A stretch of 64,000 nt of DNA from an uncultured Prevotellaceae bacterium (GTDB taxonomy: Bacteria > Bacteroidota > Bacteroidia > Bacteroidales > Bacteroidaceae), in the NCBI GenBank assembly GCA_902775475.1, contig CACYME010000020.1:35729-99728 (forward strand), in the 5' to 3' direction. Under the pieces are notes generated by a model. It searched no databases and had not been told where the DNA came from. It saw only the letters and a program-made list of their open reading frames with translations. Below are positions 35,792 to 48,506 of the stretch, one piece after another. The translations under genes and the position numbers were made by a program. Every line of letters begins with the position of its first letter. The first letter of the stretch is position 1.

Positions 35792-38338
35792 ATGAACCGC
35801 AAGCTTTACATAGTGTGGATGTGCCTCATGGCTACGATGGCCACGATGGCGCAGAACTATACGCTGAAGGGTGAAGTGGAACCTGTTGTGCATGTAGGCG
35901 AAAACTTCAAGCTACGCTACGTGCTTAATACCACTGACGGCAGTAACTTTACCCTTGGCACTATTCCTGATGCCTTCGATGTGCTTATCGGCCCTAATCA
36001 ATCGACCAGTATCAGTACGGTCATTGTGAATGGTAACACGAAAACTACTCGCACGCTTACACTGACCTATGTGCTCACTGCCAATAAGACGGGCAAGTTC
36101 ACTATTCCTCCAGCCAGTGTGAAGGTTTCAGGACAAACGCTGAAGTCAGACCCCTTAACAGTGCAGGTCATAGCTGGTAATGGACAGAACAACAGCACTT
36201 CGCATTCAGCGATGCCGACAGGAAATGCAAACGAGTTCTTCGTCATGGCTGTGGCAAGCAAAAAGCATGTGAAGGAGTACGAGCCTTTCCTGCTTACCTA
36301 TAAAGTATGTTGGCATCCCGACCTGCCTGTCATTAATCTTGACCCCATCAGCTTGGAGCTGCAAGGGGTCTATATGCAACCTTACAATGACACTCAGCAA
36401 AAGAGCAAGAAAGTGGAGACCATTAATGGTCGCGTGCTTGTGACCGTCGACTGGCAGCAGTACGTCGTCTATCCGCAGAAAGCTGGTCATCTGCAGATTC
36501 CCAGCATGAAGCTGACTGGCTATGTGCGTCAGGACTTGCCCTACGATCCCTTCGATCCCTTCTCGGCAGGCTATCGTGAAGTGCCGCGTCAGCTTTCCAC
36601 ACCTGCTGTTGACATACAAGTTGACGAACTCAGTGATAAGCCTGCAGATTTTTCAGGCGGGGTGGGGCGCTTCACCATTTCTGCCCAGTTGGAAAATGAC
36701 CAAGTAAAAGAGAACACACCTATCAATATTGCCGTCAAAGTTAGTGGTAGGGGTAACTTGAATATGCTGAAAGAGCCCTCTATCATTTTCCCACGTGGCT
36801 TTGATACCTACGATACCAAGCAGACAGAAGATTTCCAGCTCACTGCCGAAGGACTCAATGGTAGTATCAGCTATGAGTACGTAGCCGTACCCCAGCGGAA
36901 GGGCCGTTTTGTCATTCCGCCAGCAAAGCTTACCTATTATGATACAGACAGTCATAGTTACAAGACAGTGCAGACCGACTCCTTCCGCCTGGAAGTGCTT
37001 AAAGGGGATGGAAGTAGCGGTGCCATTCGTGACTATTCTGGGCAGACCGACCAAGGCCTGACTGATATCCATGCCATCAAGACAGGTGTAGAGAAGCCCT
37101 CGCAGGGACACCACTTCTTCGCATCAGGTCTCTACTTCGTCTTCATCGGTCTTTTGCTAATAGCGTTTGTCGTTGTCTTCGTATGGTTACGTCAGCGTGT
37201 CAACGGTCAAGCTGATGTGGTAAAGACTCGTGGAAAACGCGCCAACAAAGTTGCTGTGCGCAAATTACGTAAGGCAGCCAAGCTGATGCGTGAGAATAAG
37301 CCTGGTGAGTTCTATGACGAAACGCTTCGTGCCCTCTGGGGCTATGTGGGCGATAAGCTGAATATTCCCGTTAGCCAGCTCTCACGTGAGAACATCAGTC
37401 AGCGCCTTCTGGAGCGTGGCGTCGATGAGCAGACCACGAGCCGTTTCATTGAGGCAATCGACGAATGCGAGTTCGTGCGCTATGCACCAGGTGATCCACA
37501 GGGAAATATGAACAAAGTCTATGAAAAGTCAATAACAGCTATTGAACAGATTGAAAATGTGAAGCATCGCGTGAAAAAGAGTAGTCGTAGTTTTTCCTTC
37601 CTGCTTTTGGCGTTCATCCTTTGTGCTTTTTCTTTTGACAACGTAACAGCACAGACCAAGATACAGGCTGATGAGCTGTACAGTCAGGAAGAATACGAAC
37701 AGGCCATCGAGATTTATGAAAAGCTTGCTGCGCGTGGTGGCAGTGCCGAGGTTTATTATAACATGGGCAATGCCTACTATCGTCTTGACAGCATCGCCCG
37801 GGCCATCCTCTGCTACGAGCGTGCTTTGCGACTGCAGCCCAGTGACGATGACACTCGTTTCAACCTGCAACTGGCTCGAGCAAAGACGACAGACAAAATA
37901 ATGCCTGAACGCGAGATGTTCTTCGTCACGTGGTATTATTCGTTGGTTGGTCTTTTCAGTGTCGATACATGGGCATATATAGCCCTGTTGACTTTGGCTG
38001 TTTCCTTAGCTCTGCTGTTGGCCTACTTCTTTGCAGAAGATGAACGTGTACGCCGTCTGTCGTTCTTCATGTCACTCTTCTTGCTGGCCATCTGTTTGCT
38101 GGGCCATCTGTTTGCATGGCAGCAGAAGAAGCAACTTTCCGACCATCGTTCAGCTGTGGTGATGTATGAAAGTGTTCCCGTGAAGAACATTCCTTCCCCC
38201 AATGGCAATGACGAATTCACCATTCATGCAGGAACTAAAGTGAATATTACAGACGATACGATGGCTGACTGGAAACAGATTGCATTGCCCGACGGCCGTG
38301 TAGGCTGGGTAAGTCCTTCTGCTATTGAGAAAATCTAA
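35792..38338 (+). CDS. batD: BatD fused to BatE (oxygen tolerance protein with TPR and SH3 parts)
   Basis: This 848-residue protein joins two Bat proteins. It begins with a signal peptide (about 1-20) and two beta-sandwich BatD repeats, with V-G-E-N-F-K-L-R-Y-V and D-L-P-Y-D-P-F-D-P-F, the latter a family signature. A membrane helix near 448-470 and a cytoplasmic helical part (E-F-Y-D-E-T-L-R-A-L-W) follow. A new hydrophobic segment near 602-620 (F-L-L-L-A-F-I-L-C-A-F) introduces a second half with TPRs (A-I-E-I-Y-E-K-L, Y-Y-N-M-G-N-A-Y-Y-R-L), two more membrane helices and a C-terminal SH3-like domain ending G-R-V-G-W-V. That half corresponds to BatE, often separate in Bacteroides. The PAP2 gene follows by 12 bp. 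Confidence 0.88.
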   Translation: MNRKLYIVWMCLMATMATMAQNYTLKGEVEPVVHVGENFKLRYVLNTTDGSNFTLGTIPDAFDVLIGPNQSTSISTVIVNGNTKTTRTLTLTYVLTANKTGKFTIPPASVKVSGQTLKSDPLTVQVIAGNGQNNSTSHSAMPTGNANEFFVMAVASKKHVKEYEPFLLTYKVCWHPDLPVINLDPISLELQGVYMQPYNDTQQKSKKVETINGRVLVTVDWQQYVVYPQKAGHLQIPSMKLTGYVRQDLPYDPFDPFSAGYREVPRQLSTPAVDIQVDELSDKPADFSGGVGRFTISAQLENDQVKENTPINIAVKVSGRGNLNMLKEPSIIFPRGFDTYDTKQTEDFQLTAEGLNGSISYEYVAVPQRKGRFVIPPAKLTYYDTDSHSYKTVQTDSFRLEVLKGDGSSGAIRDYSGQTDQGLTDIHAIKTGVEKPSQGHHFFASGLYFVFIGLLLIAFVVVFVWLRQRVNGQADVVKTRGKRANKVAVRKLRKAAKLMRENKPGEFYDETLRALWGYVGDKLNIPVSQLSRENISQRLLERGVDEQTTSRFIEAIDECEFVRYAPGDPQGNMNKVYEKSITAIEQIENVKHRVKKSSRSFSFLLLAFILCAFSFDNVTAQTKIQADELYSQEEYEQAIEIYEKLAARGGSAEVYYNMGNAYYRLDSIARAILCYERALRLQPSDDDTRFNLQLARAKTTDKIMPEREMFFVTWYYSLVGLFSVDTWAYIALLTLAVSLALLLAYFFAEDERVRRLSFFMSLFLLAICLLGHLFAWQQKKQLSDHRSAVVMYESVPVKNIPSPNGNDEFTIHAGTKVNITDDTMADWKQIALPDGRVGWVSPSAIEKI

Positions 38339-39049: not shown

Positions 39050-40285
39050 ATGGATACAAAGCAAATTAGCATCAGCGACTATAATTATGAGCTCCCCGAT
39101 GAGCGCATTGCCACATTTCCCGTTACCCCCCGTGACCAGTCTCGGCTGTTAGTCTATGACAAAGGCCAGATTTCTGACGACCGTTTTCGTCATCTGGCCA
39201 GTCATCTGCCACAGGGGACACTGATGGTGTTCAATAACACGAAAGTCATACAGGCGCGAATGCTTTTCCACAAGACAACAGGGGCGCTCATCGAAGTGTT
39301 TCTCCTGGAGCCCCATTTCCCCGCAGACTATGAGCAGATGTTCCTCACTCGGGGGCATTGCACGTGGCTTTGCATGGTGGGCAACCTGAAAAAGTGGAAG
39401 GAGGGTACGTTGGAACGACAGCTGACGATAGATGGACGGTTGCTTTCTCTCAAGGCCACACGCCGAGGCGAACAGGGAACCAGCCATATCATCGACTTCG
39501 AATGGGATATTCCCGTCTCCTTTGCAGAAATACTCGATGCCGCAGGCGAACTGCCTATACCGCCCTATCTGAACCGCGAGACGCAGCAGAGCGATCTCAC
39601 GACCTATCAGACCGTCTATTCCAAAATTAAAGGCAGTGTTGCAGCTCCTACGGCAGGCCTCCATTTCACCCCGGAAGTGCTGGCGGACATTGACGCGAGG
39701 GGCATCGACCGCGAGGAATTGACGCTCCATGTTGGTGCAGGTACTTTCAAACCTGTGAAGAGTGAGCACATGGGAGGTCATGAGATGCACACTGAGCACA
39801 TCTGCGTCACCCGACAGACTTTGCAAAAACTGCTTGACCACCAGTGCCGTGCCACGGCAGTGGGGACAACGAGTGTGCGTACGTTGGAGAGCCTCTATTA
39901 CATGGGATTGAAGATAATGGCCAGTCCGCAGCTACAGGAGCACCAGCTTCACGTCGACCAGTGGGAACCCTACGACTTGCCTGCCAGCACGATGAATCCT
40001 TCGCGCCAGGATGTAGCCGCTGCCCTTGCCGCCCTCGTTGCCTGGCTCGACAAGTCTGGATTGCAGGCCCTTCACGCCTCTACGCAAATCATCATTGCTC
40101 CGGGCTATGAGTTCAAGATTGTAGAGCGACTTGTCACCAATTTCCATCAGCCTCAGTCTACGTTGCTGCTCCTGGTAAGCGCTTTCACTCGAGGGCACTG
40201 GCGAGAGATTTACGACCATGCCCTCAGCCATGACTACCGCTTCCTCAGCTATGGCGATAGCTCACTGCTTGTACCTATGCCATAA
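39050..40285 (+). CDS. queA: tRNA preQ1 ribosyltransferase-isomerase QueA
   Basis: QueA transfers and isomerises the ribosyl part of S-adenosylmethionine onto preQ1 in tRNA to form epoxyqueuosine. The 411-residue product is longer than E. coli QueA (about 356), as is usual in Bacteroidetes. Landmarks are Y-N-Y-E-L-P-D-E-R-I-A (N-terminal family signature), V-F-N-N-T-K-V-I-Q-A-R, G-E-L-P-I-P-P-Y, the Y-Q-T-V-Y segment and G-S-V-A-A-P-T-A-G-L-H-F-T, then L-H-V-G-A-G-T-F-K-P-V. Near the end comes N-F-H-Q-P-Q-S-T-L-L-L-L-V-S-A-F. It is the last gene of the ftsY-to-queA train; the following gene has its own promoter element. Confidence 0.95.
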   Translation: MDTKQISISDYNYELPDERIATFPVTPRDQSRLLVYDKGQISDDRFRHLASHLPQGTLMVFNNTKVIQARMLFHKTTGALIEVFLLEPHFPADYEQMFLTRGHCTWLCMVGNLKKWKEGTLERQLTIDGRLLSLKATRRGEQGTSHIIDFEWDIPVSFAEILDAAGELPIPPYLNRETQQSDLTTYQTVYSKIKGSVAAPTAGLHFTPEVLADIDARGIDREELTLHVGAGTFKPVKSEHMGGHEMHTEHICVTRQTLQKLLDHQCRATAVGTTSVRTLESLYYMGLKIMASPQLQEHQLHVDQWEPYDLPASTMNPSRQDVAAALAALVAWLDKSGLQALHASTQIIIAPGYEFKIVERLVTNFHQPQSTLLLLVSAFTRGHWREIYDHALSHDYRFLSYGDSSLLVPMP

Positions 40286-40296
40286 TCCATGTTTTG

Positions 40297-40304
40297 TAAC
40301 TTTG
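40297..40304 (+). promoter_or_regulatory. Promoter -7 element for the kinase-RapZ fusion gene
   Basis: TAACTTTG lies 11 nt before the start codon at 40316, giving a leader of only a few nucleotides. It supports that start rather than the in-frame ATG at 40289. Confidence 0.5.
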
Positions 40305-40315
40305 CCATTCAAGAT

Positions 40316-41746
40316 ATGCAGGAACTCATAAAACTATATCGTCAATGGAGTGGGGCAGACCCCGTTCAGACAGAGAAACTACCCGGTGCTGGCAGCAATC
40401 GTGCCTATTACCGTATGCAGGGCACCGATGGTCGTACTGTCATCGGTTGTGTGGGTACAAGCGTTGAAGAAAACAATGCCTTCGTAGCTATAGCCAGACA
40501 TTTTCGACAACAGCAGCTCCCTGTTCCTACGATACTGGCTGTCAGCGCAGATGGCTTGCGCTATCTGCAAACCGACCTTGGCTCTTTGTCTTTGTTCGAT
40601 GCCATACGTCGTGGGCGCGAGGCTGGCGGACGTTACGATGAGGAGGAAAAGGCACTGCTTCGGCAGACCATTGAACAGTTACCGCGCCTGCAGTTCGAGG
40701 GTGCCCGTGGTTTCGACTTCTCGGTGTGCTATCCCCAGCCCCAGTTCGACGAGACGGGGGTGATGTTCGATTTGAACTATTTCAAGTATTGCTATCTGAA
40801 GGCTACCGGTATTGACTTTCATGAGCTGCGCCTTGAAGAGGACTTCCGTCGCCTGGCCCATGACCTGACGGAGCAACCGTCTGACTGTGCTTTTCTCTAT
40901 CGTGATTTCCAGGCCCGCAATGTGATGATAGTGGCCCCCTCCAACCTCCTGACCCCCTTCTTCATCGATTTCCAGGGTGGGCGCCGAGGTCCGTTCTACT
41001 ATGACTTGGCTTCGTTCCTATGGCAGGCGTCAGCGCGATATCCTGCTGAGCTTCGCCGTGAACTGCTTGACGTTTATTATGCTCAGGCACAGCGCTATGC
41101 TCCCATGCCACCTCGTGAAGAGTTCGATGCCCGCCTGCGCCTGTTTGTGCTCTTCCGCCTTCTGCAAGTGCTGGGCGCTTATGGCTTCCGTGGCTATTTT
41201 GAGCGTAAGCAGCACTTCCTGCAGTCCATTCCCCCTGCTTTGCAGAGCCTGCGAGAGTTGATTGGCGATGGCAGCGAATTCCCCTATCCGCACCTGATGG
41301 ATGTCTTATTGCGACTGACGAAGCCTCGCTTCGTGGTGCGCATCTTCAGCTTCTCTTATAAGAAGGGCATTCCGCAGGATGAGAGCGGAAATGGTGGAGG
41401 CTACGTGTTCGACTGCCGCGGTACGCACAACCCAGGACGCTATGAGCAGTACAAACGGCTTACAGGGTTAGACCAGCCCGTGGTGAAATTCCTTGAGGAT
41501 GACGGCGAGATACTCGCTTTCCTCGATTCCATTTACAAGCTCGCCGATGCTCATGTGCAACGCTATATCGACCGTGGCTTCACGTCGCTCATGTTTGCCT
41601 TTGGCTGTACAGGCGGTCAGCATCGCAGTGTCTATTCTGCCCAGCATCTGGCAGAGCATCTTCACAACCGTTTTCCGAGTGTAGAGGTGCGCGTCTGCCA
41701 TCGTGAGCAGGGCATTTCTCAAGTCTTTGAACCAAATAGAACTTAA
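40316..41746 (+). CDS. AmgK-like sugar kinase fused to a RapZ C-terminal domain
   Basis: This 476-residue protein has two parts. Residues about 1-325 are an aminoglycoside-phosphotransferase-fold kinase. G-A-G-S-N-R-A-Y-Y-R-M is the ATP loop, L-Y-R-D-F-Q-A-R-N-V-M the catalytic loop, and F-I-D-F-Q-G-G-R-R-G-P-F-Y-Y-D-L-A-S the metal segment, all as in AmgK (anomeric MurNAc/GlcNAc kinase). Residues about 340-476 match the RapZ C-terminal domain: F-S-F-S-Y-K-K-G-I-P, F-D-C-R-G-T-H-N-P-G-R and F-G-C-T-G-G-Q-H-R-S-V-Y. In E. coli RapZ that domain senses glucosamine-6-phosphate. The next gene is MurU-like, so peptidoglycan sugar recycling is the likely pathway. Fusion of sensor and kinase is inference about function but the domains are clear. 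Confidence 0.85.
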   Translation: MQELIKLYRQWSGADPVQTEKLPGAGSNRAYYRMQGTDGRTVIGCVGTSVEENNAFVAIARHFRQQQLPVPTILAVSADGLRYLQTDLGSLSLFDAIRRGREAGGRYDEEEKALLRQTIEQLPRLQFEGARGFDFSVCYPQPQFDETGVMFDLNYFKYCYLKATGIDFHELRLEEDFRRLAHDLTEQPSDCAFLYRDFQARNVMIVAPSNLLTPFFIDFQGGRRGPFYYDLASFLWQASARYPAELRRELLDVYYAQAQRYAPMPPREEFDARLRLFVLFRLLQVLGAYGFRGYFERKQHFLQSIPPALQSLRELIGDGSEFPYPHLMDVLLRLTKPRFVVRIFSFSYKKGIPQDESGNGGGYVFDCRGTHNPGRYEQYKRLTGLDQPVVKFLEDDGEILAFLDSIYKLADAHVQRYIDRGFTSLMFAFGCTGGQHRSVYSAQHLAEHLHNRFPSVEVRVCHREQGISQVFEPNRT

Positions 41747-41751
41747 CGACC

Positions 41752-42516
41752 ATGAAGCAGGCCATGATTTTTGCAGCGGGATTGGGAACCCGTCTCCGTC
41801 CACTCACTGACACGATGCCGAAGGCTCTGGTTTCCGTGGGCGGTCAACCGCTCATCGACATTGTCATCGGGCGCCTTCAGGCCTATGGCTATTCCCGATT
41901 CGTTGTCAATGTTCACCACTTTGCACAACAGATTATCGACTATGTGGCTTCTCGCCCCTATGCTCCGCTGGTGCAGTTCAGTGATGAGCGTCAGCAGCTG
42001 CTCGAGACGGGTGGGGGATTGAAACACGCCGCTTCCCTTTTCCTTGATGACGAACCGATCCTGATACACAATGTCGACATCCTTGACAACGTTGACTACA
42101 ACTGGTTCCGCCGCCAGCATCTGCCCCAGGAAGATGCGGTGCTGCTGGTGAGCCGGCGCACCACGAAGCGCTATCTGCTTTTCGATAATGCGATGCGCCT
42201 GATGGGGTGGAAGAACGTAGAGACGGGCGAGGTGAAAAGCCCCTATGAATACGTGAGGCGTACGGGCCTCTCTCAGCATGGCGAGCCGCTCAATATGTTC
42301 GCCTTCTCTGGCATCCACTCTTTCTCGCCACGCCTTTTCCCGCTTATGGACCGTTTCCCCGAGCGTTTCCCTATCATCGACTTCTACCTCAGCATCTGCC
42401 ATCGTTCCCACATCGTGGGATGTCTAAAGGACGACTTGCGGCTGATGGACGTGGGCAAAATCAGCACACTGCAAGAGGCCGACGCCTTTATCAATACGCT
42501 ATCAACTTCAATATAA
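41752..42516 (+). CDS. MurU-like sugar-1-phosphate nucleotidyltransferase
   Basis: This 254-residue protein is a sugar nucleotidyltransferase: A-M-I-F-A-A-G-L-G-T-R-L-R-P-L-T-D-T-M-P-K-A-L at the N-terminus (nucleotide-binding loop), H-H-F-A-Q-Q-I, L-E-T-G-G-G-L-K-H-A-A, and H-N-V-D-I-L-D-N-V (metal Asp). Its size and its place 6 bp after the AmgK-like kinase match MurU, which makes UDP-MurNAc from MurNAc-1-phosphate and UTP in the anabolic recycling route. Because the family includes mannose- and glucose-1-phosphate enzymes, the precise substrate rests on the neighbour. The following gap has AATTCGTCT nonamers before guaA. Confidence 0.85.
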   Translation: MKQAMIFAAGLGTRLRPLTDTMPKALVSVGGQPLIDIVIGRLQAYGYSRFVVNVHHFAQQIIDYVASRPYAPLVQFSDERQQLLETGGGLKHAASLFLDDEPILIHNVDILDNVDYNWFRRQHLPQEDAVLLVSRRTTKRYLLFDNAMRLMGWKNVETGEVKSPYEYVRRTGLSQHGEPLNMFAFSGIHSFSPRLFPLMDRFPERFPIIDFYLSICHRSHIVGCLKDDLRLMDVGKISTLQEADAFINTLSTSI

Positions 42517-44968: not shown

Positions 44969-45114
44969 ATGAAGGATTTGAACCGTATGACCTCTACACA
45001 CTGGAGCAGATAGCAATGCTGCTGGAAGTGGACGTGAAGGACCTGCTAAACTCGACACGCAACGACATCATGTATATACCAGTGCCGAAACAACAAATAC
45101 AAGAACAACAATGA
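44969..45114 (+). pseudogene. XRE-type regulator with an internal deletion that removes the HTH
   Basis: The segment starts with ATG and M-K-D-L-N-R, which matches the N-terminus of a common Bacteroidetes HTH regulator (M-K-D-L-N-R-I-K...). It then jumps, out of frame, to Y-D-L-Y-T-L-E-Q-I-A-M-L-L-E-V-D-V-K-D-L-L-N-S, the C-terminal part of the same family, and ends Q-I-Q-E-Q-Q at a stop overlapping the hsdM ATG (ATGA). About 35 codons including the DNA-recognition helices would be missing. As it stands the ATG frame stops after 14 codons. Full-length versions precede hsdM in related loci, so this is a broken operon regulator; the deletion size is estimated from memory of the family. Confidence 0.65.
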
Positions 45115-46595
45115 TTACAGGCGAGATAAAAGCGAAGATAGACCTGATATGGGAAGACTTCTGGACGGGAGGCATCACCAACAGCATCAGTGTGCTGGAG
45201 CAGATGACCTACCTCTTCTTCATGAAACTGCTTGACGACGGTCAGCAAAAGGCAGAGAGCAATGCGAACCTCTTGGGCGCTTTCCCACCTGGCGAGTCGT
45301 GGCACAACCCTGAGACCGACCAGAACGTGCCGTATGAACGGCTGCGCTGGCATGTGTTCCGCCACGATGACGGGGCGACGATGTTTCAGAACATCCGCAT
45401 GAACGTCTTTCCGTTCATCAAGAACCTCAACGCCGGGCGCGAGTCGGCCTACAGTCGTTTCATGGAGAATGCCACGTTCCTCATTCCCAACGCCCGAACA
45501 CTGCTGAAGGTTGTCGAGGGTGTTGACGGTCTCGACATGAACAACCGCGACACCATGGGCGATGCCTATGAGTATGTACTCGGAAAGATGGCAGCATCGG
45601 GCACCAACGGCCAGTTTCGCACACCTCGCCACATTATCGCCATGATGGTGGAACTGATGAAACCTACCATCAAGGACACCATCTGCGACCCGGCTATGGG
45701 CAGTGCGGGCTTCATCGTGGAGAGTGCGAAGTATGTCAAGGCGCATTATGCCGACGAGCTGATGAAGCGCGAGAACCAGGAACACTACCGTAACCGCATG
45801 TTCCATGGCTTTGACACCGACCAGACCATGCTGCGCATCGGTGCCATGAACCTGATGCTGCACAGCGTGGACAATCCCGACATAGAATATAAGGACTCGC
45901 TGTCAACCGACAATACCGACAGCGACCGTTATACGCTCTGCTTAGCCAATCCGCCATTTGCCGGAAGCATCGACAAGGAGGTCATTGCCAAGTCGCTGAC
46001 GGCCATAGCCTCGACAAAGAAGACGGAACTGCTCTTCGTGGCACTCTTCACCCGCATGCTGGAGCTGGGCGGACGCTGCGCCTCCATCGTTCCCGACGGT
46101 GTGCTGTTCGGCACGTCAGCAGGGCACAAGGCCATCCGCCGTGAGCTTGTTGACCACCAGCGGCTGCAGGCCGTCATCTCCATGCCCAGCGGCGTGTTCA
46201 AGCCCTACGCAGGTGTGAGCACCGCCATCCTCATCTTCACCAAGACCAATAGCGGTGGCACTGACCGTGTGTGGTTCTACGACATGCGGGCCGACGGCTT
46301 TTCGCTTGACGACAAGCGAAACCCCGTCAGCGAGAACGACATCCCCGACATCATCCACCGCTACGAGCACTTGGATGAGGAAGAGATGCGGAGCCGCAAG
46401 GAGCAGAGCTTCTTCGTTCCTGCCGACGAGATACGCCAGAACGACTACGACCTCTCCATCAATAAATATAAAGAGGTGGAGCGTGAGCGTGTAGACTACG
46501 AGCCGGTCAAGGATATTCTCGCTAGATTGAAGAATACAGAGGAACAGATATGCTCAAACCTTAATACACTAAAGAGTTTGTTGCAATCAAGCTAA
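45111..46595 (+). CDS. hsdM: Type I restriction-modification DNA methyltransferase subunit HsdM
   Basis: HsdM methylates adenine in the site specified by HsdS. The 494-residue protein has the HsdM N-terminal helical domain (E-D-F-W-T-G-G-I-T-N, F-F-M-K-L-L-D), then the SAM-binding D-P-A-M-G-S-A-G-F near residue 193 and the catalytic N-P-P-F near 279. C-terminal residues A-V-I-S-M-P-S-G-V-F-K-P-Y-A-G-V-S-T-A-I-L-I-F match the family. All motifs are intact. Its start overlaps the stop of the broken XRE regulator. A four-unit TCTAGA nonamer array and the four-helix-bundle gene follow. Confidence 0.95.
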   Translation: MITGEIKAKIDLIWEDFWTGGITNSISVLEQMTYLFFMKLLDDGQQKAESNANLLGAFPPGESWHNPETDQNVPYERLRWHVFRHDDGATMFQNIRMNVFPFIKNLNAGRESAYSRFMENATFLIPNARTLLKVVEGVDGLDMNNRDTMGDAYEYVLGKMAASGTNGQFRTPRHIIAMMVELMKPTIKDTICDPAMGSAGFIVESAKYVKAHYADELMKRENQEHYRNRMFHGFDTDQTMLRIGAMNLMLHSVDNPDIEYKDSLSTDNTDSDRYTLCLANPPFAGSIDKEVIAKSLTAIASTKKTELLFVALFTRMLELGGRCASIVPDGVLFGTSAGHKAIRRELVDHQRLQAVISMPSGVFKPYAGVSTAILIFTKTNSGGTDRVWFYDMRADGFSLDDKRNPVSENDIPDIIHRYEHLDEEEMRSRKEQSFFVPADEIRQNDYDLSINKYKEVERERVDYEPVKDILARLKNTEEQICSNLNTLKSLLQSS

Positions 46596-46630
46596 ATTCT
46601 AGAAAATCTAGAAAATCTAGAAAAACTAGA
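46595..46630. repeat. Nonameric TCTAGAAAA-type repeat after hsdM
   Basis: Four 9-bp units of the form AANTCTAGA (last one AAAACTAGA) immediately follow the hsdM stop. The same array type separates moxR and DUF58 at 30945-30980. Confidence 0.85.
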
Positions 46631-46659
46631 AAGCCTACCCCCCAAAAAACAGAAAAAAA

Positions 46660-47331
46660 ATGGAGCAAGAAGCAAAAAAAATAGAAACCGTCCTCCGCAA
46701 GCAAACCAACTGGAAGCAACTCTGGTTCTACCAGAAGACCGTGGTGCTCTACCAACTCACCTACGTCTTTACCCGCCGCTTTCTCCCAGCCTACGGCGAC
46801 CGCACCATTGACCAGATGGTACAGGCGGCGCGCTCCGGCAAACAGAACATCGTGGAAGGCTCTGCTGATGGCGTGACATCCATGGAGCTGGAACTGAAAC
46901 TGCTCAATGTGGCTCGTTCCAGCATTCAGGAACTTCTGGAGGACTATGAGGACTATCTGCCATCGCATAAACTGACAAAATGGACGCAAGGGCACCCGCG
47001 CTTCGATACCATGCTCAAATACTGCCGCTCACATAATTTCGTAGCCGACTATGAACGGTTCTTCAACAAATGGACTGACGAGGAGGCTGCTAACACAGCC
47101 ATCACGCTCTGCCGAATGGTGGACAAGATGATGATGAGTTATCAGAAAAAGAAAGAAGCGGAGTTTATTACTGAGGGCGGTATCCGCGAGCGCATGACCG
47201 CCGCACGACTGAACTACAGAACCAACCAACGGGAGGCTATTGACGCCCTACAGCGTCAGGTGCAACAACTCATTACCGAAAACAATCTGCTAAAAGCGGA
47301 AATCAGCAGAATCAAGGAGGAAAACAAATGA
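46660..47331 (+). CDS. Four-helix-bundle protein embedded in the restriction operon
   Basis: This 223-residue protein has a four-helix-bundle (S23/23S intervening-sequence type) domain over about residues 20-160. The signature is a helix with T-Y-V-F-T-R-R-F-L, then D-Q-M-V-Q-A-A-R-S-G-K-Q-N-I-V-E-G-S and an L-L-N-V-A-R-S-S-I-Q-E-L-L-E-D-Y-E-D-Y-L helix. The last 50 residues form a coiled coil (A-L-Q-R-Q-V-Q-Q-L-I-T-E-N-N-L-L-K-A-E-I). The same fold is used by Avd of diversity-generating retroelements. It sits between hsdM and hsdS, and its stop overlaps the hsdS start (ATGA), so it is coupled to hsdS. A role in the restriction complex is inference; no enzyme motif is present. Confidence 0.8.
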   Translation: MEQEAKKIETVLRKQTNWKQLWFYQKTVVLYQLTYVFTRRFLPAYGDRTIDQMVQAARSGKQNIVEGSADGVTSMELELKLLNVARSSIQELLEDYEDYLPSHKLTKWTQGHPRFDTMLKYCRSHNFVADYERFFNKWTDEEAANTAITLCRMVDKMMMSYQKKKEAEFITEGGIRERMTAARLNYRTNQREAIDALQRQVQQLITENNLLKAEISRIKEENK

Positions 47332-48506
47332 GAGAGGGATGGACATATAAGACATTTGGAGATGTCGGCTCGTTCCTTCGTGGTAAGAGCATACAAAAGG
47401 CAGACTTTGTGGAGAAAGGTTTGCCATGCATACATTATGGACAGATTCACACAAAGTTTGGTGTATCTGTTGATAAACATCTTACTGAAATACCTTCGGA
47501 CATCTATGAGAAATCTATCATTGCTTCTCCTGGTGACGTTATTATTGCAATTACGAGTGAAGACCTGGAAGGTTCCTGTAAGTCAACTGCATGGCTTGGC
47601 GACTATGACGTTGCTGTGAGTGCTCATGCAGCTGTGTATAAGCATAATCTCAATCCCAAATACATTGTCTATTACTTACGTTCAAACAGTTTTTATGTAG
47701 AGAAGGAGAAATATGCCCGTGGATTCAAAGTGATGGAGATTAAGCCTACAGATATTGCACGGATTCTTATACCCATTCCACCCATAAGCATCCAGCAATC
47801 TATCGTTGCGGAACTTGACAAGATAAACGAGTTGATTGGGCTGAAGAAGTCGCAGTTGAATGACCTCGACAGCCTGGCGCAGAGTATATTCTATGACATG
47901 TTCGGTGACCCTGTGGAGAATGAAAAGGGATGGGAGGTGAAGAAGATGGAGGATATATGTACTAATATTGTTGATTGTCCTCATTCGACACCGAGAAAAT
48001 CAGATTCTGTCACAGATTATCCCTGCATTAGAACCTCTGAACTAAAAGGAGGCGCTATAAGTTGGGACACGATGCAATATTTAGAGAAAGAAGAATACGA
48101 AATAAGAATAGCGAGACTAAAGCCAGAGGCTGGTGACATTGTATTTGGTAGAGAAGGAACTATCGGTGATGCGGTCATCCTGCCAAAAGGCTACAACTTT
48201 TGTTTGGGACAAAGAACGATGTTGTTACGTGCCAACACGGAAATCATCTCGAACATTTTCTTGCATAGGGTTATTTTGTCAGAGTGGATAAAGCAACAGA
48301 TTGAGTATGTAAATGTGAGTAGTACTGTGGCTCACGTTAACATTAAAGATTTCAAACAGTTTCCTGTTCCCCTTCCCCCTCTCCCCCTCCAGCAAACCTT
48401 CGCCACTCGCATCACCGCCATTGAGCAGCAGAAGCAGCGGATAAGTGCATCGATAAAAGACCTTGAAACCCTGCTGTCATCGCGGATGCAGTATTGGTTT
48501 GACTAA
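47328..48506 (+). CDS. hsdS: Type I restriction-modification specificity subunit HsdS
   Basis: HsdS reads the bipartite DNA target and holds HsdM and HsdR together. The 392-residue protein has two target-recognition domains: TRD1 about 1-150, opening W-T-Y-K-T-F-G-D-V-G, and TRD2 about 195-345, opening W-E-V-K-K-M-E-D-I-C. Each is followed by a helical spacer with the usual P-I-P-P-I-S-I-Q-Q-S-I-V and P-L-P-P-L-P-L-Q-Q-T-F motifs and a coiled-coil. Two intact TRDs of similar size predict a normal bipartite site. Base composition is more AT-rich than hsdM and hsdR, as commonly found in specificity genes. No second hsdS or inverted copy for shuffling is seen. It follows the four-helix-bundle gene with ATGA overlap. 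Confidence 0.94.
   Translation: MREGWTYKTFGDVGSFLRGKSIQKADFVEKGLPCIHYGQIHTKFGVSVDKHLTEIPSDIYEKSIIASPGDVIIAITSEDLEGSCKSTAWLGDYDVAVSAHAAVYKHNLNPKYIVYYLRSNSFYVEKEKYARGFKVMEIKPTDIARILIPIPPISIQQSIVAELDKINELIGLKKSQLNDLDSLAQSIFYDMFGDPVENEKGWEVKKMEDICTNIVDCPHSTPRKSDSVTDYPCIRTSELKGGAISWDTMQYLEKEEYEIRIARLKPEAGDIVFGREGTIGDAVILPKGYNFCLGQRTMLLRANTEIISNIFLHRVILSEWIKQQIEYVNVSSTVAHVNIKDFKQFPVPLPPLPLQQTFATRITAIEQQKQRISASIKDLETLLSSRMQYWFD

Follow-up and report, generated by a model that had tools for sequence, protein, structure and literature searches.

A RapZ C-Terminal Domain Joined to an AmgK-like Kinase and a MurU-like Partner across Bacteroidota: A Possible Phosphatase in MurNAc Salvage

A 64,000-nucleotide stretch of contig CACYME010000020.1 (positions 35,729 to 99,728, referred to here as the window) from an uncultured Prevotellaceae bacterium encodes a kinase fused to the C-terminal domain of RapZ (RapZ-C), followed directly by a gene for a MurU-like nucleotidyltransferase. 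This kinase-RapZ-C-MurU arrangement is real and widespread, and no prior description of it was found in the open-access literature, a body of work that leaves subscription papers mostly uncovered. The arrangement is a variant of AmgK-MurU salvage of N-acetylmuramic acid (MurNAc) that includes a RapZ-C part. For that part we tentatively propose, with confidence a little below even, a role as the MurNAc-6-phosphate (MurNAc-6P) phosphatase step, doing the job of Pseudomonas MupP in an AmgK/MurU-like pathway. The locus would then encode the closing steps by which salvaged MurNAc becomes UDP-MurNAc. RapZ-C, acting as a cysteine phosphatase, would strip the 6-phosphate off MurNAc-6P or a related 6-phospho amino sugar, and the resulting MurNAc would feed the kinase to which RapZ-C is fused. 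The AmgK-like kinase would convert MurNAc to MurNAc-1-phosphate by phosphorylation at C1, the MurU-like product would convert MurNAc-1-phosphate to UDP-MurNAc, and RapZ-C would be a non-homologous stand-in for MupP. Both substrates are inferred here, and so are the phosphatase activity and any channelling from one domain to the next.

Architecture and Distribution

The fusion gene and its partner lie on the forward strand in a genome assembly of 3.73 Mb in 69 contigs, 99% complete. The longest open frame of the fusion runs over 40289..41746 (485 amino acids). Its true start is probably 40316, as the first-pass annotation of this DNA had it, giving 476 amino acids, because two relatives, L043 (MEELKKLYKE) and L052 (MDSLIKLYSK), begin at the Met equivalent to that of the window protein (MQELIKLYRQ). 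Two Pfam families match within the single frame: APH (E 1.2e-11; 40379..41080, residues 31-264), marking an APH-fold kinase domain whose nearest named family is AmgK, and PapZ_C (E 4.1e-32; 41333..41707, residues 349-473), marking the RapZ C-terminal domain. The domain had been described earlier as complete, and so it is: the PapZ_C match covers profile positions 2-119 of 121, and the motifs FDCRGTHNP and GCTGGQHRS are both present. When the whole genome was searched for other RapZ, no second copy of RapZ-C was found beside that of the fusion, and the RapZ N-terminal ATP-binding domain (PF03668) proved absent from the fusion protein and the genome alike. The closest named relative of the RapZ-C domain is in Prevotella sp. 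UBA4330, at 83% identity, a comparison that may omit entries for this genome itself or for ones very near to it. The MurU-like gene (41752..42516, 254 amino acids) adjoins the fusion as first annotated, but the gap after the stop codon is 5 bases and not 6.

The kinase-RapZ-C architecture is beyond chance because a fusion-length RapZ-C frame is found repeatedly, in 27 of the 296 genomes that were drawn evenly across the phylum. RapZ-C was identified by Pfam search in 36 of these genomes, as a fusion in 27 (frames of 478-524 amino acids) and as a separate gene in 9 (134-155 amino acids). The kinase, sought in all 296, was found in 100. MurU was sought in 80, comprising all 36 genomes with RapZ-C and 44 without it that were hand-picked for family spread. 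Every one of the 36 RapZ-C genomes also holds both kinase and MurU, a partnership of the AmgK type. In 21 of the 27 fusions MurU follows on the same strand, no more than 450 bases downstream; in the other 6 it is elsewhere in the genome. For seven of the nine separate RapZ-C genes, a separate kinase gene stands immediately before and a MurU gene follows on the same strand within 93 bases. In the remaining two genomes, G180 (L038) and G271 (L039), RapZ-C is a lone gene with kinase and MurU elsewhere; both have AnmK and no strong MurQ (enzymes taken up below), and their kinase and MurU scores are the lowest among the RapZ-C genomes.

A scan of named genomes found at least 589 places that encode a RapZ-C relative, and the loci described here are the best 80 of them. 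A frame of at least 465 amino acids surrounds the motif in 73 of these loci, and a kinase match is present in 79. MurU occurs within the locus in 63 and adjoins (at most 700 bases downstream, or in the same frame) in 56. Two loci from Bacteroidaceae metagenome-assembled genomes (MAGs) of yak rumen and water buffalo colon encode kinase, RapZ-C, and MurU as one frame, of 783 amino acids in L043 (match span L043:3398-5641) and 773 in L052 (L052:3918-6191). A Tannerella sp. MAG (L098) carries the kinase-RapZ-C fusion. Kinase, RapZ-C, and MurU form a three-function set that is repeatedly fused, and the fusion is a phylum-wide arrangement that is not peculiar to the source genome.

The Kinase and Its MurU-like Partner

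The description of the kinase as AmgK-like is borne out by family models, at a distance. Only two families, both of them AmgK models, match every one of the 24 kinases in an alignment (A3) whose members all come from this family and which takes in 20 of the 27 fusions and 4 of the 7 separate kinases, limiting near-duplicates. Against the AmgK equivalog models, the window kinase scores 54 bits for NF045759 (cut-off 550) and 32.7 bits for NF045698 (cut-off 500), below both. The best solved structure for the kinase is 3csv, and D206, N211, and D227 of the window protein align with its HRDFHAQN and VIDFQ segments. These three residues and R205 are invariant in a second alignment (A2) of 26 of the 27 fusions, in which the window sequence replaces its own copy, L001, and L022 is omitted. 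We take RDFQARN (40901..40921; R205, D206, N211) to be the catalytic loop and D227 (40967-40969) to be the second metal-site Asp.

For the MurU-like protein, two MurU models are the best of the 25 NCBIfam matches listed, at 122.4 bits (cut-off 370) and 106.4 bits (cut-off 250), again below both cut-offs. A profile of its relatives finds as best solved structures 4y7t, a nucleotidyl transferase that we take to be Pseudomonas putida MurU, and 8hhd (nucleotidyl transferase / MurU), whose companion entries are likewise listed as MurU. Distant homology and the gene partnership together suggest the substrates of both proteins, and by analogy with AmgK the most likely reaction of the kinase domain is phosphorylation of MurNAc at C1.

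The set resembles the AmgK-MurU salvage of Pseudomonas and Caulobacter in that AmgK models fit its kinase best, a MurU-like partner adjoins, and the structural matches are 3csv and 4y7t/8hhd. It differs in scoring far under the AmgK (54/550) and MurU (122/370) equivalog cut-offs, in the fusion of the kinase to RapZ-C, and in the lack of a MupP-like HAD gene from the set. Among the AmgK/MurU papers listed as matches in the literature search, RapZ is not named. Tannerella forsythia, another member of the Bacteroidota, is said to use AmgK/MurU, and the Tannerella sp. MAG noted above has the fusion. A T. forsythia mutant without MurK still makes UDP-MurNAc-pentapeptide, and therefore another MurNAc route exists (PMC5790795). 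The portions of the literature covered make no mention of RapZ-C on T. forsythia AmgK.

The RapZ-C Domain and Its Loop

Conservation of the domain was counted in an alignment (A1) of the 36 rows from the Pfam search of the 296 genomes, which gives a fair count; the best 80 loci were found via the patterns GCTGGQHR or GGG[FY][VT]FDC, a choice that itself builds in part of the motif conservation among them. Twenty-five A1 columns are invariant. Nine of them fall within the loop G92-V101, and further ones (D28, R30, N34, P35, G36) adjoin the position of Escherichia coli H190. The loop reads GCTGG[QR]HRS in all 36 rows. In the window protein, the Cys-X5-Arg-Ser segment CTGGQHRS (41606..41629; C440, R446, S447) corresponds to residues C247-S254 of E. 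coli RapZ, its anion pocket loop, with C247, T248, G249, H252, and R253 of the pocket kept. In E. coli, H252, R253, and the backbone atoms of T248 and G249 hold sulphate or malonate in this loop, and C247 is nearby; both C247A and C247S abolish RapZ function, and it has been remarked that the thiol may be catalytic (Islam 2022, PMC9841335). Homology of the pocket with a loop found in cysteine-dependent tyrosine phosphatases has also been noted, with hydrolysis of glucosamine-6-phosphate (GlcN6P) suggested (Khan & Gorke 2020, PMC7199280). Ligand hydrolysis by the domain has thus been raised by RapZ workers themselves; the idea of a phosphatase-like loop is already in print, and what is new here is the genomic context that ties RapZ-C to MurNAc salvage.

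A confident structure model predicts a strand-loop-helix around the C-X5-R-S loop, the setting that this loop has in tyrosine and dual-specificity phosphatases of the Cys-X5-Arg type, and in E. coli RapZ the same loop holds an anion. Beyond the loop, no sequence similarity to those phosphatases was found, and the fold match is weak and not distinctive. The domain also departs from its E. coli counterpart. All 36 aligned rows have Gly in place of H190 (NPH to NPG), a pocket residue needed for RapZ activity in E. coli (Islam 2022, PMC9841335), and a Gly-rich insert of the GNGGG type stands upstream of FDCR. A counterpart of K170 is retained, in SYKKGIP. The window protein has nothing corresponding to the basic RNA-binding tail (K270, K281, R282, K283), its C terminus being judged by eye. 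While the C-terminal domain is complete, the N-terminal ATP-binding domain of E. coli RapZ is replaced by a kinase. With neither the tail nor, anywhere in the genome, the N domain, a use of RapZ-C outside full-length RapZ is supported.

Co-occurrence with AnmK and MurQ

Part of the case for a phosphatase comes from the enzymes around MurNAc-6P. AnmK produces this compound. MurQ removes it catabolically, and for anabolic use a phosphatase has to act ahead of AmgK (Borisova 2017, PMC5371407). We counted MurQ as present when its best E value was below 1e-20, a threshold that leaves 85 of the 296 genomes without it; 204 exceed the curated cut-off and 7 more are intermediate and were counted as positive. 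Among kinase-bearing genomes, all 25 with AnmK have RapZ-C, as do 11 of the 75 without AnmK; the other 64 lack RapZ-C. The Fisher p for this association, 2.5e-15, is overstated because 63 of those 64 genomes belong to one family. Twelve genomes from six families have AnmK and no MurQ, and all 12 have RapZ-C and the kinase. Each of the 182 AnmK genomes without the kinase/RapZ-C set has a MurQ match. The single large family (f17, 63 genomes) and one further genome, G009, have the kinase without RapZ-C, AnmK, or a strong MurQ; MurU adjoins the kinase in the two tested, G009 and G010. These genomes appear to hold AmgK-MurU without a visible 6-phosphate source.

MupP itself was sought among HAD_2 proteins (E up to 1e-6) in four genomes: G000, and G012, G017, and G005, the latter three being among the 12 with AnmK and no MurQ. 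The MupP model (NF009696) was the best model for none of the 25 proteins found, with a top score of 68.9 against a cut-off of 359; one of these proteins (L140) has no NCBIfam match at 1e-10 and another (L135) is a 78-amino-acid frame. The fusion protein has no HAD family match in Pfam or NCBIfam. RapZ-C would share with MupP, a HAD phosphatase, its proposed reaction and pathway position, and would be at most its analogue. In the open-access literature, the only paper returned on a MurNAc-6P phosphatase in Bacteroidetes is that on T. forsythia MurK, and none joins RapZ with Prevotella.

Weighing the Possible Roles of RapZ-C

A phosphatase that fills the gap in the AnmK/MurQ pattern is the favoured reading of RapZ-C because the co-occurrence with AnmK and the intact Cys-X5-Arg-Ser loop fit it better than they fit a GlcN6P sensor. 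Several observations weigh against it. AnmK is missing in 11 of the 36 RapZ-C genomes, the source genome among them, where a search found neither AnmK nor a MurQ over the cut-off (best E 2e-9), and RapZ-C without AnmK in that genome is unexplained by a phosphatase. E. coli RapZ, a sensor, has the same Cys-X5-Arg-Ser loop, and the fold match of RapZ-C to phosphatases is not distinctive. The AnmK-negative RapZ-C genomes could have another source of 6-phosphosugar through putative PF01869 sugar kinases, since PF01869 occurs in 9 of these 11 genomes versus 0 of 12 tested kinase genomes that lack both AnmK and RapZ-C. The PF01869 search covered 29 of the 296 genomes: all 11 of the former, 12 of the 64 of the latter, and 6 of the 25 with AnmK and RapZ-C.

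The strongest alternative is that proposed at first pass, in which RapZ-C is a regulatory domain and GlcN6P or another amino-sugar phosphate switches the AmgK-like kinase, so that salvage answers the de novo supply of amino sugars. We consider it possible and do not favour it. The E. coli C-terminal domain alone binds GlcN6P with a KD of 10 nM by surface plasmon resonance, the putative site is reportedly highly conserved in RapZ homologues, and the anion pocket loop is kept in all 36 rows here. GlmS, the source of GlcN6P, is encoded in the source genome, where RapZ-C stands without AnmK. However, H190 is replaced by Gly throughout, and a GlcN6P sensor leaves unexplained why RapZ-C tracks AnmK among kinase genomes. 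A phosphatase is favoured as accounting for more of the genome pattern, and slow hydrolysis and sensing by one domain would be compatible with each other.

It is improbable that RapZ-C is a dimerisation or scaffold module, neither catalytic nor sensing, that brings kinase and MurU together to allow channelling. The E. coli domain does dimerise alone, and the triple fusions place RapZ-C between kinase and MurU, but a bare scaffold needs no conserved pocket, and the invariant columns gather in the loop and by the H190 position. Continued RNA binding and regulation of messages, as when the E. coli domain binds GlmY/GlmZ, is very improbable in spite of the kept K170 equivalent: the basic tail, which is confined to Enterobacteriaceae (Khan 2020), and the N domain are both missing, and a scan of the window for Rfam families, GlmY/GlmZ included, gave no match (the remainder of the genome was not scanned).

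Other Genes of the Window

A QueA gene precedes the fusion (39050-40285). Its 411-residue product is about 65 residues longer than the 346-position NCBIfam model and matches it in two segments (best 7-284), which points to a probable insertion; QueA does not appear as a neighbour of the fusion in the loci of the 80 relatives. Farther upstream, at 35792-38338, a single frame encodes a BatD-type protein of 848 amino acids that extends into TPR and SH3_3 domains. At 45111-48506, the type I restriction-modification genes HsdM and HsdS flank a gene (223 amino acids) weakly like 23S_rRNA_IVP, below the cut-off.

Implications

RapZ-like proteins occur in diverse bacteria, and their role outside Enterobacteriaceae is unsettled. 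Here RapZ-C is tied to a MurNAc-type kinase, and its neighbours name a likely substrate. As a speculative extension of the phosphatase proposal, RapZ-C may at root be an amino-sugar-6-phosphate cysteine phosphatase, which in Bacteroidota would serve as the MurNAc-6P phosphatase of the three-part set and of which E. coli RapZ, with its sensing of GlcN6P and handling of RNA, would be a derived use. If RapZ-C is instead a sensor, it would be acting on a protein in place of RNA. Should it prove to be a phosphatase, many Bacteroidota of gut, mouth, and environment could have a complete MurNAc salvage route that lacks MupP, and the regulator known from E. coli would have an enzyme as its ancestor.
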